In this document: positions 21,878 to 24,073 of the stretch, one piece after another
How the letters are laid out: each line of letters opens with the position of its first letter
Position numbering within the stretch: the stretch's first letter is position 1
Assembly (NCBI GenBank): GCA_030019415.1
Contig: JASEEX010000010.1
Span: 1 to 55,175, forward strand
Source of the DNA: Thermodesulfovibrionales bacterium
Lineage (GTDB): Bacteria; Nitrospirota; Thermodesulfovibrionia; Thermodesulfovibrionales; SM23-35
Direction: 5' to 3'
Length of the DNA: 55,175 nt
The notes under the pieces: model-generated
What the model was told of the DNA's origin: nothing
Seen by the model: only the letters and a program-made list of their open reading frames with translations
Database searches by the model: none
Position numbers and translations under genes: made by a program

Positions 21878-22093
21878 ATGGGAAAAAGGGTTATTATCTA
21901 CGGCAAGGCTGGCTGACCCTTTACCGAAAAGGCCAGGTTAGCCTATGGAGATAGTGCTGAATATTTCGATGTTAAATCAGACAGCACAAGATTACAGGAG
22001 ATGCTCAGATACTCAGGTGGTGTCCAAAGGGTACCGGTTATCGTTGAGGGTGATAAGGTAACTGTCGGTTACGGGGGCTATTGAGGTATTTGA
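21878..22093 (+). CDS. Glutaredoxin-like selenoprotein with two in-frame UGA codons (Uxx-star type)
   Basis: A gene that ordinary ORF calling misses. From ATG 21878, 7 bases after GGGAGG, the frame reads MGKRVIIYGKAG-U-PFTEKA with UGA at 21914-21916 exactly where glutaredoxins have the first Cys of CPYC, then EYFDVKSD, GGVQRVPVIVEGDKVTVGYG (the cis-Pro VPVIV region and glycine-rich end of the thioredoxin fold), and ends GGY-U-GI-stop with a second UGA at 22082-22084. Total 71 codons. The C-terminal U-x-x-stop matches the known Uxx-star (seleno)protein families. Each UGA is followed 16-17 bases later by a hairpin with loop CAGGTTA or CAGTTTA. This is a predicted small redox selenoprotein. The neighbour is a corrinoid activator. 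SelA/B/C are not in the window. Confidence 0.82.
21930..21944 (+). promoter_or_regulatory. SECIS-like hairpin after first UGA
   Basis: AGGC (21930-21933), loop CAGGTTA (21934-21940), GCCT (21941-21944), with possible outer pairs CC (21924-25)/GG (21947-48). The loop begins 17 bases after the UGA and contains GGU, as in the E. coli fdhF SelB site. Confidence 0.65.
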
Positions 22094-22096
22094 TTA

Positions 22097-22111
22097 CCGG
22101 CAGTTTACCGG
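22097..22111 (+). promoter_or_regulatory. SECIS-like hairpin after second UGA
   Basis: CCGG (22097-22100), loop CAGTTTA (22101-22107), CCGG (22108-22111). The loop begins 16 bases after the UGA and differs from the first loop by one base. It lies past the final stop codon. Confidence 0.6.
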
Positions 22112-22204
22112 CATCTTTAATTCCCTTTAAACCCCAATTTAATTTTTGGTTCTTCTCCCAATTAGTTGCTAAACATGGGTCAAGAGGTCCAGGATTCGAG
22201 GATT

Positions 22205-24073
22205 ATGGATATTAAATTAACCACGGGGAGAACCCTCCACATCTTAGAAGAGGAAAGCCTGCTACAGGCATTGAAAAGGCATGGCATATACCTTGTTGCC
22301 TCATGCGGAGGGAAGGGAATATGCAGTAAATGTCGTGTCAGACTCCTCGAAGGAAAGAGCAAGATTGCCTCCACGGGCAAACTCGAACCACGTGAGATAA
22401 AGACGGGGATTACCCTTGCATGCCAGACCTTTCCAGAAGAGGACATCTTCATTGATATACCGAAGGAATCAAAACTTGTTGTAGGAGAGAAGATAGCGAT
22501 ATCAAAATCTACAGACCTAATTGAACTACTTCACTCTTTAGAGGCTGAGATATCTCCAATTGTGAAGCGAATTACATTGAATCTGCCCCCGCCTACCATC
22601 CATGACAATATAAGTGACCTTGAAAGGCTTAAAAGGTCGCTGGAAGAAAGGGATTTAATAGGGATAAGATTTTCCCATGGGTTAGTCTCATCCATCTCAA
22701 AGGTACTCAGAGAGGCAGAGTGGAAGATAACTCTAAGATACACCGATAGCCATGATGCCATCTCCATTTCACCTGCTGGTATGGACGGGGACAGGTATGG
22801 ACTTGCAGTGGACATAGGGACAACCACTGTGGTTATATATCTTGTAAATCTTACAGATGGACGGCTCATTGATGTGGGCTCCACCTATAATTCCCAGATG
22901 AGATACGGAGACGATGTTATTACGCGCATAATCTATGCTACAGAGAGTGGAGGACTTGATGAGCTCAGAGACTCTGTGGTTTCCGACATAAATGATCTAT
23001 TAGCCCCATTAATAGAAAGACATAGCATAAGCAGGAAGGACATCGAATCAGTTGTTATAACAGGCAACACCACTATGACCCATATATTCTGGGGGCTTAA
23101 CCCTGCCCATATCAGGGAGGAACCTTATATTCCAACAATAAACTTTTTCCCAAGATGGAATGCAGGGACCGCTAAGCTTAAGATCAATCCCCTGTCCCCA
23201 ATATATACGGTCCCCTGCGTTGCAAGCTATGTTGGTGGTGACATTGCTGCTGGTGTGCTTTCATCGAAGCTGCATAGAAGCCCGGAGATAGCCCTTTTCA
23301 TAGATATAGGTACAAATGGAGAGATTGTCATAGGAAACAATGAGTGGCTCATGGCTGCTGCTTGCTCCGCAGGCCCCTGCTTTGAAGGAAGCGGGATAAA
23401 ACATGGGATGAGGGCGACTGAAGGGGCGATAGAATCCATTAAGATAGACCCTGAGACATTTGAGCCTGTATTTAATGTTATCGGAAATGGACAACCCATG
23501 GGCATATGTGGCTCAGGTATGATAGACGCCATCTCAGAGATGTTCCTGACAGGGATAATAGACCAGAAAGGCAAGTTTATCAGAGAGGTCAAGACTGGTA
23601 GAATAAGGAATGGTGTAGATGGTCCTGAGTTTTTGATTTTCAGCAGAGATGGAAGGGATATTGTCCTTACAGAGGTTGATATCGAGAACATTCTGAGGGC
23701 AAAGGCTGCGATATATGCTGGTGTGTCCCTGCTTTTAAAGGAGGTTGGTTTTGGCCTGGATGCGATAGAAAGGGTTTATATCGCGGGGGGATTCGGTAAT
23801 TATCTCAACGTTGACAGAGCCATCATCTTAGGGATGTTACCTGATCTTCCGAAGGATAAGTTCTCTTTCCTTGGGAATGCCTCAATTACAGGGGCATACT
23901 TATGTCTTCTTTCTAAGGAACTCAGGAAAGAAGCTGGTATTATCGCTTCAAAGATGACATATCTCGAACTCTCAGTCTCAAAAAGGTTCATGGATGAGTA
24001 TATATCTGCCCTCTTTTTGCCCCATACCCATATGAGGCTCTTCCCAACAGTAAAAAAATTGCTATCAAAATAA
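22205..24073 (+). CDS. Reductive activator of corrinoid enzymes (RACE: 2Fe-2S + ASKHA)
   Basis: 622-residue protein with an N-terminal plant-type [2Fe-2S] ferredoxin domain (C-x5-C-x2-C in CGGKGICSKC, final Cys in ACQTF; residues about 36-80), a linker domain, and a C-terminal ASKHA ATPase (DUF4445) with AVDIGTTTVVIYLVNL, VVITGNTTMTHIFWG, FIDIGTNGEIVIGN, GICGSGMIDAI and YIAGGFGNYL. Such proteins use ATP to reduce inactive Co(II)-corrinoid proteins of methyltransferase systems (RamA-like in function, ASKHA type in fold). Start at ATG 22205; upstream TTG/ATG codons lack ribosome sites. No corrinoid protein or methyltransferase lies in the window, so the partner is elsewhere. Confidence 0.9.
   Translation: MDIKLTTGRTLHILEEESLLQALKRHGIYLVASCGGKGICSKCRVRLLEGKSKIASTGKLEPREIKTGITLACQTFPEEDIFIDIPKESKLVVGEKIAISKSTDLIELLHSLEAEISPIVKRITLNLPPPTIHDNISDLERLKRSLEERDLIGIRFSHGLVSSISKVLREAEWKITLRYTDSHDAISISPAGMDGDRYGLAVDIGTTTVVIYLVNLTDGRLIDVGSTYNSQMRYGDDVITRIIYATESGGLDELRDSVVSDINDLLAPLIERHSISRKDIESVVITGNTTMTHIFWGLNPAHIREEPYIPTINFFPRWNAGTAKLKINPLSPIYTVPCVASYVGGDIAAGVLSSKLHRSPEIALFIDIGTNGEIVIGNNEWLMAAACSAGPCFEGSGIKHGMRATEGAIESIKIDPETFEPVFNVIGNGQPMGICGSGMIDAISEMFLTGIIDQKGKFIREVKTGRIRNGVDGPEFLIFSRDGRDIVLTEVDIENILRAKAAIYAGVSLLLKEVGFGLDAIERVYIAGGFGNYLNVDRAIILGMLPDLPKDKFSFLGNASITGAYLCLLSKELRKEAGIIASKMTYLELSVSKRFMDEYISALFLPHTHMRLFPTVKKLLSK

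Follow-up and report, generated by a model that had tools for sequence, protein, structure and literature searches.

How one short messenger RNA may carry three UGA codons and have them read in two ways is the question raised by a gene on the forward strand of the window, by which we mean the whole stretch of 55,175 nucleotides from a Thermodesulfovibrionales bacterium that was analysed. A sequence-only reading of this DNA had proposed that two of these UGA codons encode selenocysteine (Sec) and that each has a SECIS-like hairpin of its own downstream. The explanation that we consider very probable is that the gene encodes a 71-residue selenoprotein of UXX-star family 1 with two Sec residues, that each Sec-UGA would be served by its own hairpin, the second being a bacterial SECIS placed in the 3' UTR, and that distance would pick the UGA to be recoded.

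A glutaredoxin-like gene with two in-frame UGA codons

The gene occupies positions 21878 to 22093 (+ strand), with a purine-rich GGGAGG a few bases 5' of its ATG. Translated with TGA as U, it gives a product of 71 amino acids with two Sec, U13 and U69 (MGKRVIIYGKAGUPFTEKARLAYGDSAEYFDVKSDSTRLQEMLRYSGGVQRVPVIVEGDKVTVGYGGYUGI). This protein matches NCBIfam NF041114 (gluta_UXX_star_1, "UXX-star selenoprotein family 1") with 101.4 bits for a cut-off of 72, over positions 1-70 of the 70 of the profile, and is also matched by the Pfam glutaredoxin family PF00462. Its C-terminus has the UXX-star arrangement of a Sec codon, two residues and a stop (U69-G-I-stop). Like the NF041114 family, which it resembles over its whole length and from which it differs only by ordinary divergence, it is glutaredoxin-like with a Sec two residues before the end, and the gene is, by its predicted product, a new member of this catalogued selenoprotein family. 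The protein family and the SECIS principle were already known, and the gene itself is no surprise.

The structure predicted from 24 sequences has a glutaredoxin fold (mean pLDDT 91.7), and its top PDB match is the glutaredoxin 3ic4 (E 4.6e-4). Glutaredoxins usually end in a final helix; the predicted model stops after the last strand, without this helix. In an alignment of 178 loci, Sec-UGA 1 (21914 to 21916, + strand) occupies the catalytic position of the glutaredoxin motif G-U-P-F-T, and Sec-UGA 2 (22082 to 22084, + strand) is the third-last codon, as seen from the translation and from the homologues at this site. The first Sec would thus lie at the glutaredoxin catalytic position and the second after a GG turn near the C-terminus, and the two may have a joint redox role, as a diselenide or selenenylsulfide pair, or a role in a metal site; for the UXX-star family, a passage of one review mentions metals or other substrates as possible binding partners of Sec (PMC13188914).

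By gene content, the window's genome is able to make and insert Sec, as tRNA-Sec (75 bits), SelB (373 bits), SelA (620 bits) and SelD (L235, C111) are all over their cut-offs. The SelD gene carries an in-frame UGA within S-G-U-A-A-K, and the Sec machinery of this genome seems, from that sequence, to include a selenoprotein itself. This UGA is followed by GUCCAGGGGAC, in which, reading the letters by eye, pairing is possible without a C.A mismatch. Five genomes of the family of the window's genome (G166, G180, G283, G285 and G355) have two SelB matches each over the family cut-off, which could represent two SelB proteins for different hairpins.

Using NF041114, we collected matches over the cut-off from 61 of the 395 genomes of the window's phylum, most of them with the same two UGA codons, from 89 of 345 genomes of the phylum of locus L075 and from 3 of 199 genomes of the phylum of locus L073. 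Two over-cut-off places from the L075-phylum search (in G596 and G499) were left out of the locus set, as were L111-L118, largely duplicates of L073-L088; L222, L223 and L228 stand outside the counts, and in these three both sites are Sec and both hairpins are paired by eye. A virus scan gave distant relatives only (the best with 71% identity over 17 residues, the rest about 37%), which were left unused.

Among the 178 typed loci, site 1 is Sec (UGA) in 137, Cys in 40 and UAA in one. That one, L015, has UAA in place of UGA, a nearly complete hairpin 1 and a UGA at site 2, and reflects either a loss of function or a sequence error. Identical sequences were counted once, giving 129 unique Sec rows from the 137 and 38 unique Cys rows from the 40. 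Site 2 was not found in L070 and L205; in every locus where it was located it is Sec, except L161, which has Cys there, so the C-terminal Sec is more constant than that of site 1. A subfamily (L119, L203, L205 and L211-L216) has about ten extra residues before the second UGA (e.g. GFAGDxSLRGGIPLFGGTU), placing the C-terminal Sec further from the glutaredoxin core, and in most of these loci the ends beyond the second UGA deviate also.

No conserved neighbourhood was found in the flanks of the window and of the long-flank loci, the largest cluster comprising 9 loci and the window belonging to none of the 14 largest. Downstream on the same strand lies a gene for a RACo-like corrinoid-activation protein (22166-24073; Fer2, RACo linker, middle and C-terminal domains). 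Because there is no such conserved neighbourhood, and because this gene is absent from the flank families common to the relatives, it was rejected as a partner.

The hairpin inside the reading frame

SECIS-like hairpin 1 (21930 to 21944, + strand) consists of AGGC (21930-21933), CAGGTTA (21934-21940) and GCCT (21941-21944), that is, an AGGC/GCCT stem, a C21934.A21940 mismatch and an apical AGGUU, its seven-base loop lying 17 nt from the UGA at 21914-21916. As this hairpin has a fixed place in the frame, homologues could be compared without alignment. Taking the T of the UGA as 0, the pairs are 16-30, 17-29, 18-28, 19-27 and 20-26 around a five-base loop. All five are possible in 76 and four in 33 of the 129 unique Sec rows, and the mean number of pairs is 4.41 of five in these rows versus 2.82 in the 38 unique Cys rows, a contrast that is partly confounded because the Cys rows come largely from other lineages. 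The mean of the Sec rows also exceeds that obtained by redrawing synonymous codons (3.27, sd 0.06) and by permuting them within columns (4.07, sd 0.03), both nulls ignoring kinship. The Cys rows exceed their own two nulls too (z 4.7 and 3.2), and some of them are taken as recent switches in which the sequence was retained.

These comparisons bear on the idea that hairpin 1 is only a by-product of protein and codon constraint on the stretch Lys-Ala-Arg-Ser-Ala, UGA 1 using some other structure such as a longer stem that holds the UGA itself. Such a competing stem can be drawn at 21911 to 21943 (+ strand), by pairing GGCUGACC (21911-21918) with GGUUAGCC (21936-21943); it would contain the UGA and appears in the fold of 21908-21955, all eight of its pairs are possible in 36 of the 129 Sec rows, and we have not counted it as functional. 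In the same direction, RNAalifold yields no structure when run on A2, a site-1 alignment with 43 of the 129 rows, picked at even steps. Constraint on the protein does not account, however, for pairing above both synonymous-codon nulls and for the weaker pairing of the Cys rows, nor for the behaviour of the closing pair 20-26, which joins two third codon positions, is C-G in 90, U-A in 28, U-G in 9, A-U in 1 and C.A in 1 of the 129 rows, and ranks first by corrected mutual information among 465 column pairs (17-29 ranks third). The loop Arg codon, moreover, is AGG, CGT or CGG in all 119 Sec rows that have Arg there. We regard the by-product explanation as very unlikely, and retain hairpin 1 as the probable SECIS of UGA 1.

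Other measures at this site are as follows. When the pairing partner is shifted by 1-3 bases, the paired fraction drops from 0.88 to 0.19-0.57; the covariation score on A2 is 0.293 versus 0.207 for shuffled and at most 0.165 for slid controls; and the count for the named structure on A2 is above the controls in three of five measures. On a quick tree with few well-supported branches, the minimum number of pair-type changes is 20 for 20-26 and 39 for 17-29, and the 3 independent row pairs on well-supported branches by which the covariation of site 1 is testable are too few to decide.

The window's letters, stem pairing and spacings of 17 and 16 nt are, at both hairpins, as the sequence-only reading had given them. 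That reading had also proposed to predict both folds in context, and here the outcome was unfavourable: neither hairpin beats shuffled sequences (z-scores of six stretches from -1.46 to +0.15), and around UGA 1 the fold of lowest energy is a different one, from which hairpin 1 is absent. Such single-sequence folds are accordingly not counted as evidence for either hairpin.

The hairpin behind the stop codon and the proposed reading of three UGA codons

SECIS-like hairpin 2 (22097 to 22111, + strand), described from letters, folds and homologues, consists of CCGG (22097-22100), CAGTTTA (22101-22107) and CCGG (22108-22111), with a CCGG/CCGG stem, a C22101.A22107 mismatch, an A22102-U22106 pair and an apical GUU; its seven-base loop lies 16 nt from the UGA at 22082-22084. 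The terminator UGA (22091 to 22093, + strand) is 9 nt 3' of Sec-UGA 2, and the hairpin begins 3 nt past it, wholly in the 3' UTR. Of the 173 unique rows, 162 have a stop codon at precisely this distance of 9 nt from Sec-UGA 2 (72 UGA, 51 UAA and 39 UAG), which places hairpin 2 outside the coding region, as had been claimed for it from the window. The 11 rows without a stop at +9 were dropped from the fixed-register covariation, stem-score and distance tests.

We called a site-2 stem strong when its score was at least 7 and it lay within 32 nt of the stop, and used the stretches from +70 to +102 of the same loci as controls. Strong stems occur in 150 of the 162 loci, whereas dinucleotide shuffles have them in 18.9% of cases and the controls in 21 of 162; for strong stems with an apical G[GU], the figures are 147 loci, 5.5% of shuffles and 3 of 162 controls. 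In A3, an alignment made from sequence alone with 41 of the 162 rows (picked at even steps), RNAalifold gives a hairpin of seven pairs, each of them with compensatory changes; the covariation score is 0.562 versus 0.247 for shuffled and at most 0.228 for slid controls, and only two columns are invariant, the apical G being one of them. Covariation among homologues, which had been named as a check on both hairpins, is accordingly present at both sites. The site-2 hairpins of the relatives have mostly longer stems with loops of 3-5 nt; by stem score, that of the window is one of 12 low scorers of the 162, and only 5 of 173 rows have a weaker minimum free energy.

A G+C-rich hairpin right after a stop codon, followed in the window by a short T-containing stretch, might instead be an intrinsic transcription terminator. 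Termination does not need the apical G[GU] of those 147 loci or the invariance of its G in the 41-row alignment, and the distance from Sec-UGA 2 to the apical G is held to 16-28 nt, mostly 18-20; inspection of the site-2 rows by eye shows no general T run after the hairpin. We judge this explanation extremely improbable, in favour of hairpin 2 as a candidate SECIS.

The terminator is itself a UGA in 72 of the 162 loci, including the window. In all 68 loci that have a UGA terminator and a scored hairpin, this codon is less than 16 nt from the apical G, closer than the 16-37 nt that the published model allows (PMC13188914). Since UAA or UAG stands at the same place in the other 90 loci, the third UGA presumably terminates. 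These loci do not shun UGA as a terminator, and whether it is used is independent of the distance: an avoidance of UGA terminators at larger hairpin distances was not found among the 162 site-2 rows with a stop at +9 (Mann-Whitney p 0.53).

In the proposed mechanism, SelB with Sec-tRNA would bind hairpin 1 as the ribosome arrives at UGA 1, and likewise hairpin 2 as it arrives at UGA 2, the loop of each recruiting hairpin beginning 16-17 nt past its UGA. Hairpin 2 would be in range of UGA 2 and too near to the terminator UGA 9 nt later, so that distance would select the codon to be recoded and the ribosome would stop two codons past UGA 2, at the third UGA. Both SelB binding and actual Sec insertion are here what we infer from sequence. 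Loci in which a single hairpin follows both a Sec-UGA and, 9 nt further on, a stop-UGA offer ready-made tests of distance in the choice between recoding and termination.

The near-identity of the two loops, CAGKTTA, had been taken as the signature of a motif read by a protein. The letters are indeed so in the window, but, the window included, a single one of the 129 Sec rows carries CAG[GT]TTA at site 1 and two of the 173 rows carry it at site 2, and as nearly all homologues with UGA lack it, a constant CAGKTTA loop has to be abandoned as a motif. What the homologues conserve is a closing pair with, at the apex, a G whose next base is G or U. In the relatives, the outermost bases of the loop string do pair (C-G or U-A), whereas in both hairpins of the window they form a C.A mismatch, and the two loops therefore look alike through this general apical rule, G[G/U], together with a C.A mismatch occurring twice in the gene. 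Among 109 genes, the loop type of one hairpin shows no correlation with that of the other hairpin of the gene (Fisher p 0.80 for those 102 whose site-1 hairpin has an apical G[GT]). The double mismatch may be due to chance, to decay or to adaptation of the local SelB.

Decay would mean that only one of UGA 1 and UGA 2 is recoded here, one or both hairpins degenerating while the gene loses Sec. Both the twin mismatches and the place of the window's hairpin 2 among the weakest suggest this, and at the closing pair of hairpin 1 the window is the sole case of C.A among 129 Sec rows. Yet neither UGA codon has been lost, the frame is unbroken, the protein reaches 101 bits against NF041114, the hairpins retain their other four pairs and their apical triplets (G-G-U and G-U-U), and L192 has the same CAGTTTA in its hairpin 2 together with both UGA codons. 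Decay is, in our view, unlikely. That two UGA codons are read as Sec, each with its own SECIS-like hairpin and the second hairpin outside the coding region, is strongly supported by comparative evidence, namely the curated family, covariation at both sites, weaker pairing in the Cys rows and the full Sec machinery; this part of the sequence-only reading stands, and the CAGKTTA motif does not.

A more far-reaching view, which we hold tentatively and place slightly below even, is that the family has a natural, conserved bacterial 3'-UTR SECIS in which the hairpin acts as a ruler, one UGA being Sec and a UGA 9 nt nearer being a stop, so that three UGA codons in the window's mRNA would have two meanings by distance alone, the C.A mismatches possibly being matched by a change of SelB in the window's lineage.

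Comparison with known SECIS systems

The consensus model of the bacterial SECIS (bSECIS) describes a short stem, an apical G then G or U and an N1-N2 closing pair, at 16-37 nt from the UGA, with limits of 4-16 bp for the upper stem, 3-9 nt for the apical loop, a G in the first two loop positions and an MFE of -7.5 kcal/mol or lower, typically in the coding region (PMC13188914). The hairpins of the window share the apical G then G or U, the short stem (4 bp, with a loop of 7 nt, in both) and the distance from the UGA (17 and 16 nt), and differ by the C.A mismatch in the closing pair. Their G falls in the first two loop positions only if the C.A and the A-U above it are counted as stem, and is strictly third; among the relatives, G is in the first two positions in 121 of 129 rows at site 1 and, with a stem score of at least 7, in 147 of 162 at site 2. 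In context, hairpin 2 forms part of folds with energies of -7.9 and -10.3 kcal/mol, and by itself it has -5.2, values to be read with the proviso that the stretch folded by the model may differ. Hairpin 1 lies inside the coding region, as usual; hairpin 2, by contrast, lies wholly past the stop codon, and we therefore report it as working, in all probability, like a bSECIS at another place.

In two reviews, the parts that deal with location assign the SECIS elements of bacteria to translated sequence (PMC13188914, PMC11431864). Contrary to these statements, the site-2 hairpins indicate that a bacterial SECIS can sit wholly in the 3' UTR. About 170 such natural hairpins, free of protein constraint, make a clean covariation set for the study of bacterial SelB recognition, their common pattern being a closing pair and an almost invariant apical G with G or U after it. 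In the portions of the literature that our search covered, a scope outside which the family's own description lies, we found no description of a natural bacterial 3'-UTR SECIS, and we claim no priority.

With the archaeal and eukaryotic SECIS of the 3' UTR, the likeness is in location only, the hairpins of the window's family being instead bSECIS-like and at a fixed short distance. A similar layout is that of an E. coli thioredoxin reductase construct, which, in the portion of the source that presents it, has the formate dehydrogenase SECIS after the stop codon and is drawn with a UAA stop (PMC11431864). The two share a C-terminal Sec-UGA with a SECIS past the stop; the construct is engineered and ends in UAA, whereas the arrangement in the window's family is natural, conserved and often ended by UGA. 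By this analogy, and as far as that portion of the source describes the construct, hairpin 2 appears as the natural counterpart of the engineered E. coli design.
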